A stretch of 64,000 nt of DNA from Cystobasidiopsis lactophilus (Eukaryota > Basidiomycota > Agaricostilbomycetes > Agaricostilbales > Chionosphaeraceae): positions 4,252,878-4,316,877 of the forward strand of contig BCIO01000002.1 in the NCBI GenBank assembly GCA_001599975.1, given 5' to 3'. A program made the translations under genes and the position numbers. This document shows, one piece after another, positions 4,266 to 62,170 of this stretch. The notes under the pieces are model-generated. The model was not told the DNA's origin and did no database searches. It saw only the letters and a program-made list of their open reading frames with translations. Position 1 is the stretch's first letter, and each line of letters opens with the position of its first letter.

Positions 4266-6251
4266 CCTGCAAGTTGAGCTCCTCGAAATTGCTTCTAGTG
4301 TCGACACGATCGAATAGAGCATTGATACATCCAACTATTTCCATGCCGTTGACAGCGGCTCTTGCATGATAGCAAAGAAGCTGTCGTCTTGAACACTGAG
4401 CAGATGCAATGGCGCCCCGTTGCGCCTGTGCCACATGAACCAAGTGACAGAGGCTGGTCTTGACCGAGACCCCTTCAAGACACTAAGCGCAAAGCCAGGC
4501 TGAAGGAAGGGAAGGTAGGCAAGATCGAGATAACCGCGTGCTCGTCGAGGAGGTGCTGGCAGCAGCATTGCCGAGCCACAGTGCAAGGCGAAAGCAGGTT
4601 CCGATCACGATCCATGATATAAATCATAACACACGTATCGAATGACTGCCAATTTGGGAGGGACAAGAAGCGCCTGAAGGTCATAGCAGAGTCTGGGTCG
4701 ATTGGCGCTCGGGAGTCCATGTGCGCAAGGGCGGGAAGTGGGACCAGACTCTAGCACGCCTTTCACATTCAGAGAGCATGTAGAACACTTTGAGGCCAAA
4801 GGCTGAAGTTTGAAAGGTGAAGGATGAGCATGGTCAGGCGCAAGAGTCGCGGCGGGCGCCAAGGCTCAAAGTGGCGAGTGGCTCAAAGAAGTGGGTCTCG
4901 TTGAAGGCTCAAGAGGGGTGGGTTTGCAAGTGGGAAGAGGGCCTTCAAAAGAGGTGAGACTAGGTCACTTCCAATCGGTTACCCCGACATGCCCTTCCAG
5001 CTACAAAATTGCCCAAGCCTGCACCCCTCCAATGGCAGCAACTCCCCCTTTGCCCATACCAGACGTCAAAGCACCACGAACGGCCAGAGGAGGGAAAGGA
5101 AGGAGGAGGAAGAAAAAGATGTGCCCTCTTGCTTTCCGATCCTTGATCCACAGAGGGTCACAACCAAGAACTGGCCTCTCCCAGCGCCAAGCCTCCCTCC
5201 TTCACACGCTCAAGAGCGCGTTCCAGAGAAGAGAGCGAGGTCGGTATGATGCCACAGGAAGAGCAAAGCAGGGGTGGGTGATCTGGCCTGAATCAGCTAA
5301 GCTCGCCGAGCTCTCGGTTTTGTTTGGTGAGCTCGGGAGTGAATAGTGCAGGCCATTTGGTGTTCGGACTCGTAAGCTTGCTCGCCAGGTCGAAGTGGCG
5401 CAAGAAGGCAAGCACAGACGACCAGACGAACTCCTGGAAAAAGAGGCAGAAAGCAAGGCAATCAGCATCTTTGTCCCTTCCGAAAGTTCAAGAATGATCA
5501 AGGGAAGCTTCAGATACTATCTAGTGTTGTGTACGGTTCATCATCGTGCCCTTTTTACAGGTGCTCGGATGTCCCAATCTACTTTTTATTTTATGCGATG
5601 GTTTTTTCATCTTGTAAACGGCGGCGGAGGAAGAAGGGCACGACAGAGGAGGAAGGGACGGGTGCTCACAAGTTTGTCTCAAGGTGTGAAGCTAGACGAC
5701 GCAGGAATATTAAGCCCGGCTACAAAGAAGGTGGTTGCGCTCAGCGGGCCTCCGAAACCCAGAAATGATGCGCGCCGTCGTCGGACACGGGCCGAGGAGC
5801 AAAGCACAAGGACAAAAGGCTCCACACAATGGTGCGCCAGTAGTGAACAATGGGCCACCCAAAGCAACAAGCGAAGCGAAAAATTTGCAAAGCGACCGAG
5901 CTGGCAATGTGTGGCTAGGCGAGCATCGGACCTGGCCGCCCCTCGCGCGGGCTTCTCTTGCTGCGACTTGTTGGCGACTGTGCTGGCTGAACGGGAGCAA
6001 GCTGTTGAAGCGCCACCGACGCCAAAATTTGCACAGCGCGCGAGTCACACCTCAGCGCGTGATCCCGGCGACAAAGGGTCGATTCCGCTGCCTTGGACCT
6101 GCACAACGAACACACCCAAAACGGCCCACGCTGCAGACGCTCAAGTACATCGTCAGTTGGTTCGGCGGCGGTGAGCCGGCCCCAGAGCCTGTCCAAAGTG
6201 AGCCCAAGCCCGCACACGTAGACTAGATCCGCAATTGACAGGGCGCCAGAC

Positions 6252-33329: not shown

Positions 33330-34987
33330 CTATGACAGGGGAGCGGGAAGGGGTTCGCCACCTGTTGTTGTTGTTGCGGCGGCGGCGCCGTTCAAGTTCC
33401 GAGGTTGGGCGAGCGGCTGGGGCACCGGTGGCCAGGCATCGATGGCCTGCAAGCTAGCCACTCGGCTCTCGTACTCCCCAAACACTTCGGGCGACAGGCC
33501 AAACTTGATCTCGACCCGATGCCACGCATCGATGCCTTGCTGCTTGGCCACAGGGCCGTAGTCCATCTGGTCCTCGCCTTTCTGTCATCGTATTGCGTAC
33601 AAATCAGAAGGGGAGCACTGATGGAGGGGAGCAAAGCATCGCACCTGTAGCCGGCGGACTTTGAAGAGCTGGTGGGTGTGGACGGGCACGTAGTAGGCGC
33701 CAGCCGGTCTCGGCGGCACCAGCCCGTCTTCGAAGTCGCCCTCCTTGGCGGTGCCGAGGTCGATGGTGAGCACGTATTCGTTGCTGAGGTTGCGCGAGCT
33801 GGCCGACTCGTAGTGTCTCCCAAACTTGAGCGAGCCCTCCTGCAAAGGCCCCCAACGACGTAAGACCAACGCAATAGTTTAAATATAAGAAAACGCACCA
33901 AGGTGGTAGACTGAGTGGCCGTGCCCATGGGAATCTCATCGACCTTTTCCTTCTCCCACTTTTTGCGCTTGAACTCCTGCGCGGCCTCCGGCGAGTCCCA
34001 GCTGTAATACGCTATCCTCATCTCGTCGTCGATGAAGACTGGTCTTAAGAAGGAGGTCTCGGCAACGACGTTGGTGGACTGGCGCAGCGGCTTGGGCTTG
34101 ACGTCCTCGCCTTGGGAGTTGGAAGGGGCGGCGGGCTTGTTGGATTCTGGTGGGTCAGGGAAGCGGACGAGCGCATAGCCGTTGGCCCAGATGGAGTCGT
34201 CCGGCAAGACGTTGAACTCCTTGACGGCCTTGCGCGACTTGTCGGTCGGGTGCTTGACCGAGGATAGTGGTTGCTGCACGGCGTCAAAGGAGGCTTGGAT
34301 GGCCCGAATGCGGCTCTCGACGGTGTACTCCTCCTCGTCCAAGTCCATCGCTTCTGCTTTTGGTTCTCTGTTTGTCCATGCAGTCTAGCGATGAGCCAAA
34401 ATCCAAGGATCAAGAAGGGACAGAGGACGAACAGCATGGAATCCTCTTTTTTGACGGCAGCATGACTGGTGGACACGTTGGCGCCGCTGCGCTCTTTGGC
34501 CTTGATCAACCAGCCCACGTTGGCCTTTTGCCTGGGCGGGAGGGCCTGCGCTGGGGCCTGGCCGCCGGTGGAAGCGCCCAGCGCTGATGCGCCATTGGTG
34601 ACCGGCCCCAAATCCGAGCCCGGCGGCGGCCTGCACAGGTCCGCGTCGTCGTCGTCCAGCGGTTGTAAAGCAGCGTACTTGTCCGGCGCATACAGCGCGC
34701 GGTCGCCCTTCCAATAGGCCAAGTCCCGAAAAGGCTGGTCGGCGGCGAGCAGCGGCATGCCCATCTCGGCGTCGAGCAGCAGGGGCACCTCGCGGTCCTC
34801 GTCGAGCACTTTTAAAGTGTCAAAGTTGGCCAGGCGGTTGGCGTCGGTTTGGATGTCGAGCATCTTGGGCGGGAAGGGCGGAGGAGGGAGCGATTGCTGG
34901 AAGCGCACTCGCACCAGCAGCCTGGCGTGCCCTTGCCTTTCAGAGACCTGGCCGGGTCGTGCACAGTACAACACACTCACCCGACAT
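33330..34987 (-). CDS. PAF1: RNA polymerase II-associated factor 1 (Paf1 complex)
   Basis: Five coding exons (34987-34981, 34931-34467, 34365-33899, 33839-33645, 33581-33330), about 461 residues. Family marks are LLVRVRFQQSLPPPPFPPK at the start, LLDAEMGMPLLAADQPF, LPPRQKANVGWLIKAKERS, then the C-terminal beta-rich half with FNVLPDDSIWANGYALVRF, AETSFLRPVFIDDEMRIAYY and YYVPVHTHQLFKVRRLQ. Paf1 is a core subunit of the PAF complex that travels with RNA polymerase II, helps histone H2B ubiquitination and H3K4/K36 methylation, and supports 3' end formation. The first coding exon is just seven nt (ATGTCGG). The exon 2/3 border is set by phase and could shift slightly. The tail is Gln/Ala/Thr-rich and not conserved. 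Confidence 0.92.
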
Positions 34988-35264
34988 CCTTGCTGTAAAT
35001 CACAAAGGTAAGGCGCTAATCAAAGGGCGAGGATTCAAAGAGCAATGCAACTCACGAAGGCCGTTTGGACATTGTTGCTCAAGAATCAATAGCTAGAGCC
35101 TGGCTGGGGCCTGCTGTGGTGCAATCGAAGTCTCTTGATCTCTACAAACAGATTCAAGGCAAGATGGCAAGGGTCGATGCGGTCCAGAGAATTTCCTTGC
35201 GGAGCTTGAGCGCGGAACGGTTTTCAACAGGCCCAATGATGGTGGTACATGATTCAAGGGAAGC
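34988..35264. other. Intergenic
   Basis: About 275 bp between the PAF1 start and the MSH3 stop. No supported gene. Confidence 0.4.
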
Positions 35265-38200
35265 CTAGAGGGAAGCCAGCAAGTCTTTAGCGCTCTGAGC
35301 CTCCTCTTGAGCGTGCCCATCAGTCTCGAAAGCCAAGCTGTTGAAGAGTTGTTGAACGGCAGCGGTGGCGACTGGCAGCAAGCCCATGGTGGCGCCCACA
35401 GAGGCCGACTTGGCCTTGGCAGCGTCGAGCACGGTCTGAGGTAGGCCAGCCATGCGAGCTACGTTCAACCTGTGGGCAATAAGATATCAAAGCGCTATCC
35501 TAGAGATGGCAAACAGAAGAGCACCACCCACCCATGGCTCTGAGCTGCGAAGCCAGGAGCGAGCTTGTACAGAAATGTGACGTCCAGAGCATCCTTGTCC
35601 TCCAAGAAGGTCATATGCCAAGCCGACAGTGAATCGTGGTGGACGGAGCGCAAGACGGACGTGTAATGGGTGATGAAGATCAAGAACGGCTGGACTTGAG
35701 CGACCAGGTGCTGCAGGCACGCCAAAGCGATCGCTTGCCCGTCGTTGGTCGAGGTGCCCCGGCCCAGCTCGTCCATGATCACCAGCGACTGCGGCGTGGC
35801 CGTGCGCATGATCTCGCTCGTTTCCGACAACTCGACCTGTGTCACGAATTCCGTTTATGAGATTTGTGAGAAAAATAAGGACAACGCCAAGCTTGAGCTC
35901 ACCATGAAAGTGCTGTGGCCTTTGCAGATGTCATCGCCGGCACCAATCTGTTTTACTGGGAATTAGATTGTTCAACTTTCTTCGTACGACAATGCTGACT
36001 CTAGTGTAAACTCCCTGTCGACATTGCCTCAGCATTGAGTCTTTAGTAAACGTAAAAGGCGCACATCGAAGAGTCCGATGCGGCAAGATGAGGCGGGCAC
36101 ATCTGAGTCTTCGTTGTGAGCGTGAAGTCTACGGCGCAATCAGGGGGCCTTACAGCTGCCAATTTGAGACATGATGACCAACAAAGCAGTCATTCTGCCG
36201 GCCGGAAAAAGCGACGTCAATATACTGCTTTGAGGAGCTGAAGTAGGAATTGGCTGCCCACCTGCTGTAAGACGATTTGCCTGAGTGCAAAGCGATCAAA
36301 CGCGGGCCTCAAGTGGGTCTGAAATCTATCTCACTCACCTCCCTTAAGCGTTCGCAAACGCGAAGATCAGATAAGCTCAATTGAGAGGTACTTGCCAACA
36401 CCCACCATATTTGCTCCAGTCAGGCTGACCCAAACCTCAACTGGATAAACGGAGCAAAACGAGGGCTGGAACTCACATCATGGCTTTTTGCTTCTCGTCG
36501 AAAGACACGTCGTTGGCCACATAAGGATTGGGCGAGTAAGCTTCAATGAGCGGATGACGAGCGCCCCTGGCCTCCAAGCCGCATTCGCTCATCAGCTCGG
36601 GCTTGCAGTCTGTACAGCACCTTCATCAGATACAGTCCTTCAAGTTTATAGAGATAGAGAAGCGCACAGTTGGGTCGAGCAGCCACGTCCGCCAGCCCCA
36701 AGAAACAATCCAACTCGGCAAGCTGGCCGATCAAGTGACGGATCTCGGCTCCGGAAGACGCAAAGTCCCCCAAAAGCTCGGCATAGCGTTGTTTGCAGAC
36801 TGTGTGACTGCTTAGTAAGGGAAAAGAGACCATTGGCTGAACCCTCACCCAGCTCGAGCTCCTCGTCGTACTGCGCTTTGCGATCCAGCAGCGCTTGGGC
36901 TTCCGGAGTCCGGTAGCGCTTAGTATCAGATCAAGGAGTCAATTTGGAGCTAAGTTATAAAGTAGGAAGATCGCTTACGATGGTGGTCTTGGTGCTGTTG
37001 ATCTTTAGCCAAGCAGAAGGCACCTTTCGAGCTTCCGCGCTGCCGGTCTCAACCTCGGTCAAAAAGTCCTCGCCGGCCACGCTCTTGAACTCTGTGGTTT
37101 TGCTTTTGAGGGTCTGGCGGATCGACTGGAGCTCCTTCTGGGTGTCGCCCCTCAAAGTGAGAATGCGATCTCGAGCCAGATCCACGCGCTTGCTGGTGCC
37201 TTGAACGAACAGTCCCGACAGATTGTTTTCCTTCGCCGAAGCTTCGTCCAAGATGCCGAGGTACTTTTCTGCAAAAGGCCCGCTGAACTCGAGAGCTTTG
37301 AGGCAGTCGCGCAACTTGGTGGAGGTGAAAGCTTCGTGCGTGGCCGGCCGCTTTTCATAAAGACTCTTGAAGGCAGCCAGCGTACGAAATACCTCAGAGG
37401 GCTTGCTTCGGGTGGATAGAATGCGCGAAAAGCCCTGGAGGCACCTCTTGTGATGAGCTGGCGTCAATGACTGAGTTTTAATTTGAACGTACACGTTCCA
37501 GGTCAGGCAGCCCTGTCAGAATCCTGACCAGATCGCCCTTAGAAGGACTTTTCAGGAGCTCCTCCACTGTATCTAGCCGGCTCTGCAGCGCCTCTTGGTC
37601 CATCAAGGGTCGCGACACCCATCTCCTCAGTCGGCGCCTCCCAAAAGAAGTCCTGCATTGATCCAACAACCAATACAGACTGCCAGTAGTAGATCCAGTG
37701 CTGACACTTTCGAAGATGTCCAAGTTGCGGATCGAGTTGGAGCTGAGGGTGAACGAAGCTTGCTCAGAGAAGCGACGGAACCGGGCGTGAGCAAAGAGGC
37801 CCATCAGATGGTGAGAGGCAAGAAAGTCAGTCATGCCGGCTAGCGAGGGCATGACAGAGCGAGGCAGGCTGGAGATGCTGTCCTGCAGATCGGGAGTCTC
37901 GTCGGCGGGAATGTCTAGAGCGCAGAGCTTCGAAAAGGCTCGATCTGCTTTCAAAGCTTCAAAGGATTCGGTGTGGGTAGATCCGAGCATGTCCGATCTG
38001 GAAGCAAGGAAGCGCTCGACCATGCTCTTGCTGCCGGACGAGACGTTGGCCGCCATGTAAACTTCCGCAGGCGAGAGGTGGAGCAAACGACACTCCAACT
38101 CGTTGCGTAAGAACCCATCTTCGAAATGGTCCCAGACCAGATCGCCCGTCTTGGGCTGGAAGCTCACTAGCGAAAAGTCCGACATGTCGTCCACACCCTT

Positions 38201-39042
38201 GGTCTGCCGCGGCGTCTCCGTCAAAAACAGGACAGCGTTCCCGTAGGCGTTGTCGATGAAAGAGTCTTCAGTGTCCAGTTCGTCCACGAAGGTCTAAGGC
38301 TCTGAAGAGTCAGACGAGTAACCACATTACAGTAAAACCGATCCGCACAGACAAAGTGTACAGCTCGGTGAGCTTTCGCTCGAAGAGCGTGTTTCGGGTA
38401 GCAGAGATCTTCTTGAGGGCCGCACTTTCCTGCTGTCTGATGATGCCGACCTTGTAGCCTGCCTGCAGCAACCGCTTGACATGGACGTAAAGTCTGGGCT
38501 CTGGAACCATGGCGGTGTACATCGATTTGGACATGAAGTGGGCGATGCTGAGAACTCTAGAAGCGTCCACAGCGTCTTGGCCGTAGAACATGAACTTGTA
38601 GCCGACTTGCACCTGCGTTCGCGAGCTGTCAGATCAGAGGCGATGGCAGCGTTTGGAGGCGCATAAAAGGACGAACCATGAGCATCACTCCCGGGGACTG
38701 CGAGCGGAAATCAAGATACTGCTTCTCCAGAGGCGTGTAGCTGGCAGCGGGGGCAGGCTTGACGTCCTCCTCATCTTTGGCCGCCCTTCGCTCATTTTTG
38801 GCCAGAAACTTCTTGACGAAGGCGTTGCGCTTGGCCTTGTCGACAGAAGCAGAGGTCAAGCTGCCAGCTCTGTACTGCTCTAGGGAATGGGCGCTCGATT
38901 TAAAGCGCTTGGCCTTGGGCAGCCCGACTTCTTCGTCCGAATCCGAAAGCAGCACTGGCGAGGCGGCGGAGCCCTGCTGCGGCTTCGACTTGGCCTTCGT
39001 GGGCTCCTTGCGCTTCAGAAAGCTAGAAATTGACGACTGCAT
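35265..39042 (-). CDS. MSH3: DNA mismatch repair protein MSH3
   Basis: The gene has at least 15 exons and I could follow the frame from the ATG at 39042 (MQSSISSFLKRKEPTK, a PCNA-binding QxxISSFL box) to the stop at 35265. Domain I: YTPLEKQYLDFRSQ, VGYKFMFYGQDA and ARRL-like VHVKRLLQAGYKVG, typical of MSH3 rather than MSH6. Lever and clamp domains follow. The ATPase domain shows GANMGGKSSYS (Walker A), SYVPASSCRIGLFDGVYTR, IGAGDDICKGHSTFMVELSE, Walker B LVIMDELGRGTS and the FITHY switch. MSH3 pairs with MSH2 as MutS-beta and repairs insertion-deletion loops. Exons around the Walker A are 19, 4, 19 and 41 nt (36406-36424, 36339-36342, 36262-36280, 36154-36194). The usual Pro of GPNM is Ala here. 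Intact by phase; the border near 37490 is a 46-nt intron with an AAG acceptor. Confidence 0.92.
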
Positions 39043-51594: not shown

Positions 51595-53137
51595 ATGAAA
51601 GCCTCCTTGCTGCTCCGGCAGACTTTCGACGTCTCCAAATTTGTGCGGCTCCCAAGGTTGATTTGCGAGCTGGTGGCGGACACGGCGTCCGAGAAGGCAG
51701 CGCACCAAGAGGTCGTCGTCGCTCAAGGATGGATCCGGTCCATGCGGCGGCAGCAGCGCGTCGCCTTTGCCGAGATCAATGATGGGTCCACGTTCAAGAA
51801 CCTGCAAGCTGTCCTTAAACCGGAACAGGCCAAAGGGTAGGCTTGCTGCTCGCCCCAGAAGACACCTGGCTTAAATTTCGGTCTCGGATTGGCAGGCTGT
51901 CACCGGGAGCCAGCGTCGCTTTCACCGGTTTGATGCAACCGAGTCGTGGAAAAGGACAGCAAACAGAATTGCTGGTGGAGTCTGTAAAGCTATTGGGAGC
52001 CTGCGACGACGTGAGGCACACCACTTTCAATCCTCGAAGTCACCCGCTCATTTTCAAGACGACAGCCTCACTATCCGATCCAACCTAAAGACCACAGCAA
52101 CGCGTTTCTAAGGAAGCACCCGCACCTCCGCAGCCGGACGAAGAGCAACCTGGCCCTGCTTCGGATCCGCGACGCTTGCTTTCGCGCTGTTGCCGAAGCC
52201 TTTCGGGTGAGTTTCTGCCTACCTGTCATTCGGCGTCGAATTGTTCTTGAGTATCACACGCTCACAGAGCATGTCGTTCTACCAAGTGGAAGCGCCCATC
52301 TTGACCCACGGCGACTGCGAAGGGGGCTCCGCCGTCTTCCGGGTCGAGCCCGCCGTCAAGCGCGAAGACGAGCCGACCACGCCCACCTACCTCTCCGTCT
52401 CCACCCAGCTCTACTTGGAAGCCCTGTCCTCCTCACACGGCCGCGTGTTCACGCTCAGCCCGGCCTTCCGCGCCGAGCGCAGCCTGACGAGCCGGCACCT
52501 GTCCGAGTTCTGGATGCTCGAGGCCGAGCTCTCGTTCGTCTCCGAGCTGGACTCGGTCATGCGCGTCGTCGAGGCCTGCGCGAAGGCCGCCTACCTGGCC
52601 TTACCGCCTCAAGATGTCGAATGGCTCCAGCACGACGCCCTGGCCGGCACGAACTTGGAGCAACCCTGGCCTAGGGTGACTTATGACCAAGCGGTGGAGC
52701 TGCTCCAAACTCAAGCTGGCATGGACGTCGAGTGGGGCTCGGACCTGTCGACGGAGCAGGAGCGCTGGTTGGCCGAGCAGCACGCTAAAGGGCCAATCTT
52801 CGTCACTGACTACCCTCAAGACCTCAAGCCCTTCTACATGCGGCTCAACGAGGACGGCAAGACGGTGGCGTGCTTCGATTTGCTGGTGCCGGGCGTGGGC
52901 GAGCTGGCGGGCGGGTCGTTGAGGGAGGAGCGCGAGGTGGAGCTGCAGGCCGCCTTGGAAGCCAAGGGGTTGCCGAAGCAGGCCTACGAGTGGTATTTGG
53001 ACTTGAGGCGCTACGGCACCGTCCCCCACGGCGGGTTCGGCATGGGCTGGGAGAGGCTGGTGGCGTGGTTGACGGGGGTGGAGAATGTGCGCGAGTGCAT
53101 CGCTTTCCCTAGAGGCTCAGAGGGCTTCCACATCTGA
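51595..53137 (+). CDS. Asparaginyl-tRNA synthetase, mitochondrial type
   Basis: Four exons (51595-51836, 51896-52010, 52066-52206, 52268-53137), about 455 residues. The start (MKASLLLRQTFDVSKFVRLP) is basic and hydrophobic like a mitochondrial presequence. The OB-fold anticodon-binding domain follows: VVAQGWIRSMRRQQRVAFAE, ELLVESVKLLG. The class II catalytic core has HPHLRSRTKSNLALLRIRD, FYQVEAPILTHGDCEGGSAVF (motif 1 area and Asn pocket), VSTQLYLEALSSSHGRVFTL, FRAERSLTSRHLSEFWMLEAE (motif 2) and GFGMGWERLVAWLTG (motif 3). It charges tRNA(Asn) with Asn. The length is nearer mitochondrial AsnRS (NARS2/SLM5) than cytosolic, which carries an extra N-terminal domain. The Asp/Asn choice follows the AsnRS-like FDLLVPGVGELAGGS loop. 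Intact. Confidence 0.88.
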
Positions 53138-56710: not shown

Positions 56711-59700
56711 TCACAATTCACTTTTGGCCCGCCGGGCGTTCTCGTCGTCCTCGTGCGCCGCTGAGTTGCCGCTGCCCTCCGTCTTGAACTCTTCCTCTTG
56801 CAGCTTGGCTTGCCCTAAGCCAGTCGCATCGCCTTGGAAGGCCACCGCCGCGCTGTTGTCGTCGGCGTCGTTCGCCGCCACTCGGGAGGCGAGCGCCGCG
56901 ATCTCGTTGTCGTACACGGTCCACTCGGGGATCAGTCGTTTCGCTCGTTGGAGTTTCGGTTCGTGTGTGGCTGGATTGTTGCACTGTCTCACGGATCTAT
57001 GAGCTCCTTCGAGAGATGGGAAAGAGAACCGGCAAGACGCACCAGATCAATCGTCTTTGCTGTAGCGAGGGTCTCGTCAGAACACCAAGTCTCGCACCAT
57101 AACTGAATCTCAACCGTTAGCTGATGGCTATCACAATGCTTGAAAGGGAGGCTTGCCCAAGATTGATCGAGGGTGAACTATGCGCTTTGATCAGACACGG
57201 GACCGGACTTTCTGAGGCACACTCACGATCGGTATTTGAGCTTGCATGTTGTTGGGCAGATCCTGTGCCATGGACTCAGTCGGACACTTTGTGATGCAGG
57301 GCGAACGACGAACCTGGTCCAGGTTGGCCAACGAATGTGGGTCGGCTGAAAGAGCTTGATACTGGCCTCTGAGACGGTCACCAGCGGCCATGTGCCGGAA
57401 GCGATCCAAGTCAATGACATAAAGCGCGCTGCAATTGAACTTGTAAGGAGCGGCCAGCACCCGAGGAGAAAAAGCAACAAACCTGATGTGGTACGGTCGC
57501 CCTTGAAGGTGATCTCGCCCTGGAGTGTTCGACTTCAATGGAGTGCAACTCCAAAACGAAGATATTACTCACAATAGCCAGTCCGCCAGAATCGGAAGCC
57601 TTCCATCTCTGTCCGGTCGTTGCACATTGGCGTGTAGGCGTACGGGGCTCCCTTTAAATCTAGATCGACGAGTTGCTTGAGATCGGTCCGAACGATCTGA
57701 GAGCGCACTTGTTAGAAGAAACCTTGAGCCTTGGACAGCATACGAACTCACCTGGTCAGAGTCAACAAAGATGACGCGCTCCAGCTCCAGAGGGAACAAC
57801 ACATCCAGGAATAGGATCTTGTAGCTGTTGAAAGACATGTGAGACGCATCAGATAGGCAAGCAAGGCAACACCTACCCCCAGATCGTCCGCTGCTTCTCC
57901 TTTTGCGCTCGAAGCCAATGTGGCCACTTGTAGGTGACCAGCTCGTAGTCAAAGTTGTACTCGGCCGCCATGTGGGGGATGAACGCTTTGAAAGAGGGCG
58001 ACAGAAAGTTGGAGATGAACCAAAACTTGACCGAGCTTTGGGTGTGGCGCAGAACGCTGACGATCATGATGAAGGCCATGCGCTGCGATTGCTTCGATGA
58101 GATCATGAACAAAATGATATCAGGCAAAGACATCTACCTCGTAAAGCAACCCAGAAGCCACGGTGAAGACGTTGAGCTCGGCGCCGGTGTTCTTGGTCTT
58201 CGCGACTTCTGTGGAACCTTTACCGAAGAAGGACTGGAGTCTGCAAGCCCAGCATGAGCCATGAACGGCAGCAAAAGTGGAAGGGCTGACCTAGAGACGA
58301 CACCAAGTCCCCCCGTGCCAGCCGAAGCAGCCGTCTCTAGTTCGAGGAGATCGACTTGCTCCATCCCCGGCTTTCGCACGAACTTGGGCAGCAATGTAGT
58401 GCCTTCAAAAGTGGTAACAGCCACGCGAGACTCCGATACCAGATCATAAACCTCTTCGCCCTTCGTCTGAGGTCGAATGGTCAAGTCGAAAAGACCAGGT
58501 CCCGCCTTGAGCTGCACGTAGCCCAAGTTGGCCATCACGATGCTCTCCGCAGCTTTGCTCGAGCCATTTTGGGAGTCGGAGCTGAGAGTAAGCTGCAAGC
58601 CTCTGGGTGGCTGGCCGCCCATAGTCACGTCGCTGCAGTGGCCCTCGACCACAATGTTTTCAAGCTCGAAGATAGCGTCCACATTGGCGGAGGAGTCACG
58701 CATGTCCGAAAGCCTGATGTTGTCCAGATCGTGAATTGAAACGGAAGGGAAGGCAAGCCAGGTACGATGCGTCTCCAGTGCCAAGGTCAGCAAGACGGAC
58801 TTGGGCATGCCTTCAAATGAGACCCTGGCCGACTCGACGAGGCTGTTTTCCGATATGTTACCTCAGCAATCGATGCATATCGTCCGGCACGTACCCTTCT
58901 GAGTTGAAGGAGGGCTCCGAGCTAAACATGTGGCGGTAAAAGCGCTTGACGGGCAGCTCCGGGATGAATGCTGAAGGATTGAGGTAGACGCGGACATGCA
59001 CGCCGTCGAGTTTTGAGAGGGTCTGGGTTGGGCTGAGGAATATTTTTTGGTGGGGAAGAGGGCAGACTGACCTGAAGAACAGCTGACCACTTCTGCGCCA
59101 GCTCGCAAACTGGGTCCAAGGCAGCCTCGATATATGCCCAGGCGCTTTCTTCGTCTCCAATACGGATAGTGCTAATTCAAGATAAGCAACTGGGAGATCC
59201 GATTCGAGAAGTGGCACCAACGTGTGATTCCCGTTCAAAGCGGATTGAGTTGTCATTCGTCGAACTGGCCCGCTGGCCAGGATGTCGGTCGGATCATCTT
59301 GGTTGATCTCTGCCAACGTCGATGCCACAGACGCGACCAAAGCGAAGGGGTCTTCACTCGATTTGGGGTCCAGGTCGGCACCTTGCAAAGCTGCCTCCAC
59401 AGCGGAAGTGCGCTGGATCGACTCGTACTCGACCAGCGTCTCAAAATCGGACGCCTTGAAGTCATCGTCTTTTAGATCCGTGATCAGTCGGCCGTTGACC
59501 AAGAGTCCGGGCTGTCCGTGTAGCAAGTCGGCCAGCTTCGACGACAGCCGGTGGACCGTGGCACCGAATTCGAGGATGCAGACTCGAACGATTGAAGTGG
59601 TAGTGGACTACATCAATAGGATCAGAACTTGCTCCAATGATAGGTCGGAGCGCGACTCTTACCGCAAAGTCTCGGGCTTCCTGGTTCAAGCGATGCTCTG

Positions 59701-62170
59701 AAGGCGCAAAAACATAAATGGACGAGTGTGTTTGATTGGTGCCCTCTATAGCAGAGATCAGGGAAGACTATGAGACTCAGACGTTTACGCACCAGCCTGG
59801 GAGTAAATCCAACCAGAGGAGCAAGCCCAAGAAGTGAGAGAAACGAATCGGAGGGCGCCGACATCGTCATTGAAAACGAGCGCGTTCCTCCTCTTAAATG
59901 TGGCAGGAAGATCGTAAAAGAGAGTTGAAACGGCTGCGTCTTCGGCAAGCCGCTTGAAGTAGACCTGCTGCTGCACGTAGGCTTGCTGCAGACCGATGGC
60001 GCCTTGCATGCCGCGCTGAAGGTTCTGAGGAACGCACAAGTGGTTGGAATTGAAACTTTGAAAGCAGGGCGTCTGCTCACCTGGTTTAACGGCAGCACTC
60101 GCCCATTAAGGAGCAAAGCCTCTTGAGTTGCCAATCCCAAGCGGGCGCAATACGCCTGGGCGCTGGACAGCTTGTCTTGCCCATAGCTCGAAATAATATC
60201 TTCCAATGGTAAGGCGGCTTCGCCCGTCTTGGTAAGCCCGTCTCTGGCTGCGAGCACCGCTTTGAAGGCCTTTTGCACGTCCTTGAGCGTGATAACCGGA
60301 GCTTGGATTTCCGCCAGCTGTTCAAAACCTGTTAGCCAGTAAACCATGCTATAAACGTAGATATGCCGAACAGGATGGAGGAAGGACATGGCATCCGTCT
60401 TGCCGAATTGGTCCAGCAGGTAGTAAAGCGTTCTTGCCAAGTGCGTAGCTGTGGTGCGGGTCAGTCTCATTCGCGCCATCTACAGAGGCTCACTCACAAA
60501 GTTCACTGTTGCTGGTCGGAACCAAGCCCATGTGGAACGGCATCGACCTTTGAACGAAGTTCATGATGTAGTTGACGATGTGGGCCAAGCTCTCCGTCTT
60601 GCTCAGATCCAAGACAAACACGAAGTTCCAGATGTTGAGCTTGAGTTGCGTCATTTGGCCAGGGTACGACGGCCTCAGCAGATCTCGCAGCTCGGTCGAC
60701 CAAGACTTGTACCGCCGGTCGTTCTCCAAGTCATTCCACCAGATGATGGCAAGCCCTTCTTCTGGACGGTCACTGGCATCAAACAACAAGCCCAGGTCTT
60801 CAGCGTTGACCATGCCGCCAGCTGGCATCTGAGCTGGGCCTGCCGCTGTCGCTTTGGTGCTGTAGGCCGGGTGCGAGATGACCTGAATGGCCTGTTTCGG
60901 CGTCAGGCCGACAGAAAGGAGTCGTTGTACATGCTTTCGCTCTTTTCTGAGCATTCGGAGGAGGGCGAAGGGCTCGACGTCTTTCGGCTGGATTTGCAGG
61001 CCGTTCAGCCAAAGGATGTTCGACCCAGGCTCGATGTTTTGCTCTCGGTTGAGCAGCAACTCGGCCATCACTGGCTCTGAGACATCTTTGACCCAAGAGG
61101 AAGCCAGCTGGTGGGCGTATTTGGGGAAATTTTGGGAGAGTTCGACCAACGTGTCCAATGGCGCCGGCGAGTCCATGACAAATTGGACGGCCTTCTCGCC
61201 CAGCTCTGTGGAAAAGGATGTTACTTCAAGGTGCGTGACACCTCAAATCACATAGGCTCGCACCTTTAAGTTCCGACCGACTCAGCGGCATCAACGTGTC
61301 CGGGCCAGATGAACTGCCAAACTCGACCTCGCTCCCACTGTCCACCTGTTTGGACGACGCTTTCTCCGTGGATGCAGCATCTCCTTGTTGCCGATCATCT
61401 ATTGCGAGGTAGTCGGACTTCTTGATGTCCAAGCTCGCGCCGTAGCCTTGCAAGACCAAAGGCGGCATGGCAAAAGTCGAGCTGGCAGGCTTCCACCGAA
61501 TGGCCAAGCGACATTCGGTTTCAGTCTCAGCAGAGATTAGGAGCAGTGCCAAGGAAACATGAAAGTTGGAGTCGGTCGGGTCGCCGTAGAGGACGATCAG
61601 AGGCGAGTCTGAGTTGCCTAGAACACGGTCAAAGGGCAAAGCAGTAGGCTCGCCAACCACGACGCAGCCCCCAAACAGTTTGACGTTTTCGTCTTCAAGC
61701 GGGTGGGAAGCCAGGATCCAAGACTGGCAGTGGTCCGGCAAAGAAGATGACAGAAGCGGGTTCAAGCTCTGGTAGTGCTCGTAAAACGCCTGAACCCGCG
61801 GCGCAGCTTCGTGGTTGGCCAGGCTGAGCTTGACAGCATCCAGTTCGCCCAGCGACTGGAGCAGACCCTGGTCGCTCAGTTCGGCGAGGGCTCGTTCGAA
61901 GGCAGCTTTTGGGTTGCTGCCCCATGGCTTGCCAGCGGGGTGCGACAAGGTGGCGGCAGCTGGGAAGAAGGCAGCTTCATTTTCTATTGCTATTGACTCT
62001 CTAAGAACGTTCCATGGAGTCAAAAAGGGTCAACAGGAGGCATGGAGAGACACGAACAAGAGTTGGACGAGCAAGTTGGTTTGAGCCCATTTGGCGTGAA
62101 TGGACAAGGTGATGGCCGAGCTGGCAGCAGCGAGCACGGCTCGCGTTGCTAAAAGCCATAGCACCCGCAT
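56711..62170 (-). CDS. UDP-glucose:glycoprotein glucosyltransferase
   Basis: A multi-exon gene of about 5.4 kb. The start at 62170 gives a signal peptide ([19 protein letters not shown]), spliced in phase to [13 protein letters not shown]. Thioredoxin-like domains follow ([30 protein letters not shown]), then [15 protein letters not shown] and the C-terminal GT24 catalytic domain: [58 protein letters not shown] with VDSDQ (the D-x-D metal site), [40 protein letters not shown] and [20 protein letters not shown]. It reglucosylates misfolded N-glycoproteins in the ER lumen, the folding sensor of the calnexin cycle. The C-terminus ends KSEL, a likely ER-return signal (variant of KDEL). Intron 57103-57156 uses a GC donor. 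Intact. Confidence 0.93.

Follow-up and report, generated by a model that had tools for sequence, protein, structure and literature searches.

In Fusarium, the gene CYP621A has been reported to contain a single-nucleotide exon, for which RNA reads are described (PMC12940212). A single-nucleotide exon of Arabidopsis APC11 has experimental support from reporter constructs, and the authors of that work favor intron definition with stepwise removal; a potato gene cited in the same paper is described as losing its second intron first (PMC4674806). In human MPC1, a 4-bp exon is reported to be constitutively included (PMC9929638). Microexons of ≤15 nt in plants are described as often missed in annotation (PMC8831610). 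The initial annotation placed 4-nt exons at the lower limit of what spliceosomes can recognize, which was wrong: exons of 1 nt have been published, and so has a 4-bp exon that is constitutive.

Here we describe the sequence GGAG (36339–36342) as what is very probably a real 4-nt exon of an intact MSH3 gene, obligatorily (constitutively) included and flanked by ordinary GT-AG introns. Ultra-short exons are an established class, of which the MSH3 4-nt exon is one example. As in Fusarium CYP621A, it is an ultra-short exon of a fungal nuclear gene that lies inside a conserved protein motif, and, as reported there, it was deduced from two exons that are out of phase when joined directly, and its inclusion keeps the motif. 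The Fusarium exon differs in being 1 nt rather than 4 nt long and in not coming from a basidiomycete, and the same candidate exon is described in 24 genes (20 orthologs according to the abstract) together with RNA reads (PMC12940212). The MPC1 and MSH3 exons are equal in length, which is not a multiple of three. The constitutively included MPC1 exon is described as relying on proximal introns that carry strong exon-definition regions (PMC9929638); in contrast, the MSH3 introns, at 58 to 63 nt, have little space for more than the core signals, and that the MSH3 exon is included is a prediction. The APC11 exon is constitutive, ultra-short and viewed in terms of intron definition, as we propose for MSH3, but it is a 1-nt, reporter-tested plant exon whereas that of MSH3 is a 4-nt fungal one (PMC4674806). 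The P450 genes of the basidiomycete Phanerochaete chrysosporium resemble MSH3 here in their small introns (45–55 bp) and small exons but belong to another family, and the shortest exon stated for them is 6 bp (PMC1184071); this is also the shortest stated for any basidiomycete in the literature searched, where no basidiomycete exon shorter than 4 nt was found. Among the papers returned for MSH3 and microexons, none was about an MSH3 exon, as judged by title and the start of the abstract.

The exon lies within a window of 64,000 nt, the whole stretch of DNA that was analyzed, and the assignment of its gene to MSH3 in the initial annotation proved correct. The best solved-chain matches of the model protein are to MSH3 (E 1.4e-155, a chain that is presumably human), compared with 1.9e-67 for MSH6 and 3.6e-60 for MSH2, and it is MSH3, rather than MSH2 or MSH6, that is the best match over most of the protein length. 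A protein search with the model returned 4370 matches, the best 120 of which share 35 to 41% identity, and every shown name with an MSH number among the matches listed is MSH3. The hand model (Table 1) covers the full length without an internal stop, and all its introns have GT-AG ends. It departs from the spliced aligner at intron 3, which is 46 nt in the hand model and 58 nt in the aligner's preference, making four amino acids uncertain outside the region of the four-base exon. Tandem repeats were sought and none was found. Pfam searches of ten ORFs of the stretch placed Paf1 in two ORFs, a tRNA synthetase of class II (D, K or N type) in another neighboring gene, and thioredoxin-like domains in two ORFs, with Thioredoxin_12 over the cut-off and Thioredoxin_14 just under it.

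The fungus appears to be related to the rusts. A quick tree of its MSH2 with 34 chosen relatives groups the genome with Pucciniomycotina, in a 19-row set that includes rusts and Microbotryomycetes, inside neither of the two; its own branch is long and its inner position unsettled. The top identities among the matches listed in three protein searches were 41% (MSH3), 52% (MSH2) and 54% (MSH6), so that no close relative is present among the listed proteins.

Table 1. Features of the MSH3 locus and its surroundings in window coordinates
Feature	Position	Strand	Length and content	Basis
MSH3 gene	35265..39042	minus	974 aa (970 aa with a 58-nt intron 3)	16-exon hand model
Exon 8	36406..36424	minus	19 nt, CCTGACTGGAGCAAATATG (end of I, then L-T-G-A-N-M)	hand model and aligner
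Intron 8	36343..36405	minus	63 nt, GTGGGT...TTAAG; candidate branch point CTGAT, 25 nt from 3′ end	
Exon 9 (candidate microexon)	36339..36342	minus	4 nt, GGAG (Gly codon and first base of next Gly)	model, aligner, shuffles, enumeration
Intron 9	36281..36338	minus	58 nt, GTGAGT...CTCAG; candidate branch point TTGAT, 16 nt from 3′ end	
Exon 10	36262..36280	minus	19 nt, GCAAATCGTCTTACAGCAG (end of G, then K-S-S-Y-S)	hand model and aligner
Intron 10	36195..36261	minus	67 nt	hand model and aligner
Exon 11	36154..36194	minus	41 nt	hand model and aligner
Exon 12	36065..36102	minus	38 nt	hand model and aligner
Exon 13	36000..36014	minus	15 nt, followed by unusual donor GTCAGC	hand model and aligner
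Exon 14	35903..35947	minus	45 nt, last of seven consecutive exons (8 to 14) of ≤45 nt	hand model and aligner
Neighboring genes (Paf1, tRNA synthetase, thioredoxin-like)	33395-35019; 52211-53134; 59625-62029	minus; plus; minus		Pfam

With exon 9 included, the predicted junction protein reads GANMGGKSSYS and the Walker A loop is GANMGGKS; the pattern G-x-N-M-G-G-K-S is obtained only with this exon. The four-base exon of the initial annotation, its coordinates, the neighboring lengths (63, 58, 19, 19 and 41 nt) and the peptide were all reproduced in the sequence. A custom spliced aligner was run against a profile of 119 other MSH3 proteins, from which the protein encoded here was excluded, and from which the Rhizoctonia solani protein P0033 was dropped because the motif is missing there. 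Blind to the gene's own protein, the profile alignment recovers exons of 19, 4, 19, 41, 38, 15 and 45 nt. When the aligner was trained, with a per-intron prior and a length term, the top path included GGAG with 35 and with 40 training introns. Permitting AT-AC ends in the MSH3 alignment left the outcome unchanged. One full-length run produced false exons upstream of the gene, which were disregarded.

The full G-x-N-x-x-G-K-S/T motif is present in 119 of the best 120 of the 4370 matches. In these 119 best-listed relatives it takes the form GPNMGGKS (92) or GLNMGGKS (23), with GSNMGGKS, GSNMSGKS, GINAGGKS and GPNMAGKS each occurring once, and the residue at stake at the splice junction is Gly in 117, Ser in one, Ala in one and Val in none. 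Against the proposed reading, the second residue of the P-loop is Ala here and in 0 of the 119, so that this P-loop deviates from the family regardless of how the junction is read. The deposited MSH3 of R. solani reads GPNMGGK and then runs off the family pattern for about a dozen residues, as if the end of a P-loop intron had been mis-set in that protein.

Reference introns were taken from the MSH3, MSH2 and MSH6 genes of the same genome and were picked by a splice-blind model, which demanded only GT and AG and carried a heavy per-intron charge, so that circular training was avoided. Prp8 and Rpb2 families were also searched as intron-dense candidates and were left out of the reference set. 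The splice-blind model gave 42 introns, 40 of which are 49 to 67 nt long, with G at donor position +5 in all 40. The two exceptions are a 121-nt intron at the GGAG site and a 122-nt intron at a site in MSH2; both, being >75 nt, were excluded from training, which used sets of 35 and then 40 introns. Measured against these introns, the donors of introns 8 and 9 (GTGGGT and GTGAGT) are usual for the genome, whereas the acceptor of intron 8 (TAAG) is weak and counts against the exon, A at −3 occurring in 1/40. The "good splice ends" of the initial annotation are accordingly upheld for both donors but not for this acceptor. An AAG acceptor likewise ends the Walker A intron of the L010 paralog. GGAG is preceded by an AG acceptor and followed by a GT donor, and the flanking intron lengths are usual for the genome, the acceptor being the weak element. 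Branch-point-like motifs occur in introns 8 and 9, and a match of equal grade is found in 31 of the 35 reference introns. RNA folding of introns 8 and 9 and the 125-nt spacer was not notable (z-scores of −0.18, −1.24 and −1.16). A separate oddity of the gene is the donor GTCAGC 3′ of exon 13 (35948-36014, minus strand), which is itself the only one of 35 tabulated introns with C at +3.

All frame-open GT-AG routes from AAT to AAATCG were enumerated, whether they used a single intron, a pair of introns or a twin intron of the donor type; introns had to be ≥35 nt, and the outer donor of a twin intron had to lie within the 12 bases that follow AAT. Fifteen routes resulted, and M-G-G is produced by one of them, the GGAG route, as the initial annotation had held in stating that the P-loop is readable only with these four bases. 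This route scores 6.46 with 35 training introns and 6.29 with 40, ahead of the runner-up by 10.5 and 10.1 nats, respectively. Dinucleotide shuffles of the 125-nt spacer, with the first six and last four bases held, reached the real score in 0/400 cases. Because no shuffle matches its score and only one route of the 15 gives M-G-G, the GGAG route lies beyond chance. The shuffles also bear on the suggestion that the exon structure is an accident of a mis-assembly or a broken allele, since random sequence seldom gives so good a route. The analysis is based on the assembled sequence, which leaves some room for that suggestion; however, in the rest of the gene model the frame stays open and every intron is GT-AG, and the MSH3 segment matches its own genome (22.1 Mb, eight contigs) once, at itself. 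We give mis-assembly or a broken allele a very slim chance.

The splice-blind aligner skips the microexon at the GGAG site, which counts against the exon. Under its heavy per-intron charge it chooses a single 121-nt intron (36281–36401, donor GTGTTG), and MSH3 would then read GANMVGKSS, in frame and still in line with GxxxxGKS, the loose Walker A consensus. However, the donor of this intron has T at +5, where G stands in 40/40 reference introns, and its length is far outside their 49 to 67 nt. It scores −9.04 with 35 training introns and −8.79 with 40, which is 15.5 or 15.1 nats worse than the GGAG route, and it places at the junction a Val that none of the 119 best-listed relatives has. The Val reading, which the initial annotation had set out as an outcome that would speak against the exon, is rejected on the score, the relatives and the donor, and we regard a single intron as very unlikely. 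A GT-AC intron ending in GCAC|TCAGGC, which would give M-S-G-K-S, was set aside by eye as non-canonical and 121 nt long.

Complex introns in which one intron splits the donor of another have been described in fungi, and one such arrangement, giving M-V-G, came second among the 15 routes (−4.01 and −3.81 with 35 and 40 introns). In this nested D2,3-type stwintron, an internal intron GTTGGC...GGGAG would split the external donor, leaving ATGGTGG|GC and a V-G junction. It would use a GAG acceptor, and G at −3 is found in 0/40 reference introns; it also gives Val and falls 10.5 or 10.1 nats behind the GGAG route. None of the donor-type arrangements enumerated bears out a stwintron, which we hold to be exceedingly unlikely. 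Equally little likelihood attaches to recursive splicing through a zero-length exon at GGAG|GTGAGT (M-V-G; −4.70 and −4.79 with 35 and 40 introns) or to a 4-nt exon one register further on, GTGA (M-V-S; −4.68 and −5.27). Both are formally possible routes but need a GAG acceptor, and the zero-length exon needs a GTGTTG donor as well; with 35 training introns they are 11.2 and 11.1 nats worse, respectively, than the GGAG route. The zero-length exon gives Val, and its score speaks against a recursive splice site.

With GGAG taken as an exon, the predicted mRNA is ATGGGAGGC, with the junction ATG|GGAG|GCAAATCG, and the predicted cDNA product is ATGGGAGGCAAATCG. The single-intron model gives the mRNA ATGGTGGGC, whose V-G junction reads ATGGTGGGCAAA, and the cDNA product ATGGTGGGCAAATCG. 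The two mRNAs are of equal length and differ by two bases, so that reads could end up forced onto the wrong junction during alignment.

Skipping exon 9 leads to a stop at codon 759 (GANMANRLTAE, then stop), retention of intron 8 to a stop at codon 764 and retention of intron 9 to a stop at codon 755, each of these products thus ending within about a dozen codons. Since skipping GGAG shifts the frame, the canonical P-loop is obtained only by the four-base route among the routes examined, and since the skipping and retention products end early, only that route, of these, gives the whole ATPase. The exon must therefore be constitutive if the gene works. As the introns are only 63 and 58 nt long, intron definition is possible, and each of introns 8 and 9 would be recognized across itself. 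The two would be taken out successively, as two spliceosomes could hardly fit 4 nt apart. Intron 9 would probably leave first, as it has the stronger pair (GTGAGT...TCAG), although this order is something that we only infer; GGAG would then become the start of a 23-nt exon, and intron 8 would be removed next.

A stretch of 181 coding nt around Walker A holds eight of the 15 MSH3 introns (35903-36476, minus strand), and crowding as tight was seen in 31 of 400,000 random placements that used the hand-model exon lengths. A gap of ≤4 nt somewhere among 15 randomly placed introns arises in about 25% of placements, so that, given dense introns and a spliceosome able to cope, a tiny exon calls for no further explanation. 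Internal exons of MSH3, MSH2 and MSH6 number 44, including one artifact of 70 nt, created where full-length aligner runs insert a spurious intron close to the C terminus of MSH3; one is ≤10 nt and 11 are ≤51 nt. The sole exon of ≤10 nt is GGAG, so these three genes supply no second example from the genome, which counts against the proposal.

Two other MutS genes of the genome have Walker A introns, at positions other than in MSH3, in the Asn codon in MSH2 (L011) and in the Met codon in the L010 gene, and MSH6 (L009) and the L012 and L013 genes are without an intron at that place. This comparison used the MSH3 profile; the assignments of L011 and L009 agree with the protein searches, and the paralogs on L010, L012 and L013 were compared without an MSH type. 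The MSH2 gene of this genome also seems to contain an AT-AC intron (G000:C3:1682500-1690000, minus strand; reverse-complement bases ~6025–6130). The candidate, ATAAGT...CTGAC...TTTAC, is 67 nt long, follows a 16-nt exon and restores DGMGLAWAISE, with a gain of 19.0 in alignment score despite a 5-nat extra charge (9.1 with earlier settings); the best GT-AG alternative is the 122-nt intron, whose donor has C at +5. U11, an RNA of the minor spliceosome, was sought and gave no match, and the controls were likewise without any match. A survey describes AT-AC introns as far less common in fungi than they are in animals and plants (PMC7072748). A broader proposal, that in conserved genes of this lineage a permissive, intron-definition spliceosome routinely deals with AT-AC introns and with exons of <10 nt and that splicing of the P-loop exon sets the amount of MSH3, we consider improbable. 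If such a spliceosome were real, the lineage's mismatch-repair genes would be systematically mis-modeled.

Few ultra-short fungal exons are on record; the MSH3 case adds a probable one of 4 nt, which lies in the motif that is most conserved in a widespread ATPase family, and it shows how such exons can be overlooked. Failure to splice the P-loop exon would truncate MSH3. Given the expectation of about 25% under random placement, intron-rich fungal genomes may hold many more such exons.
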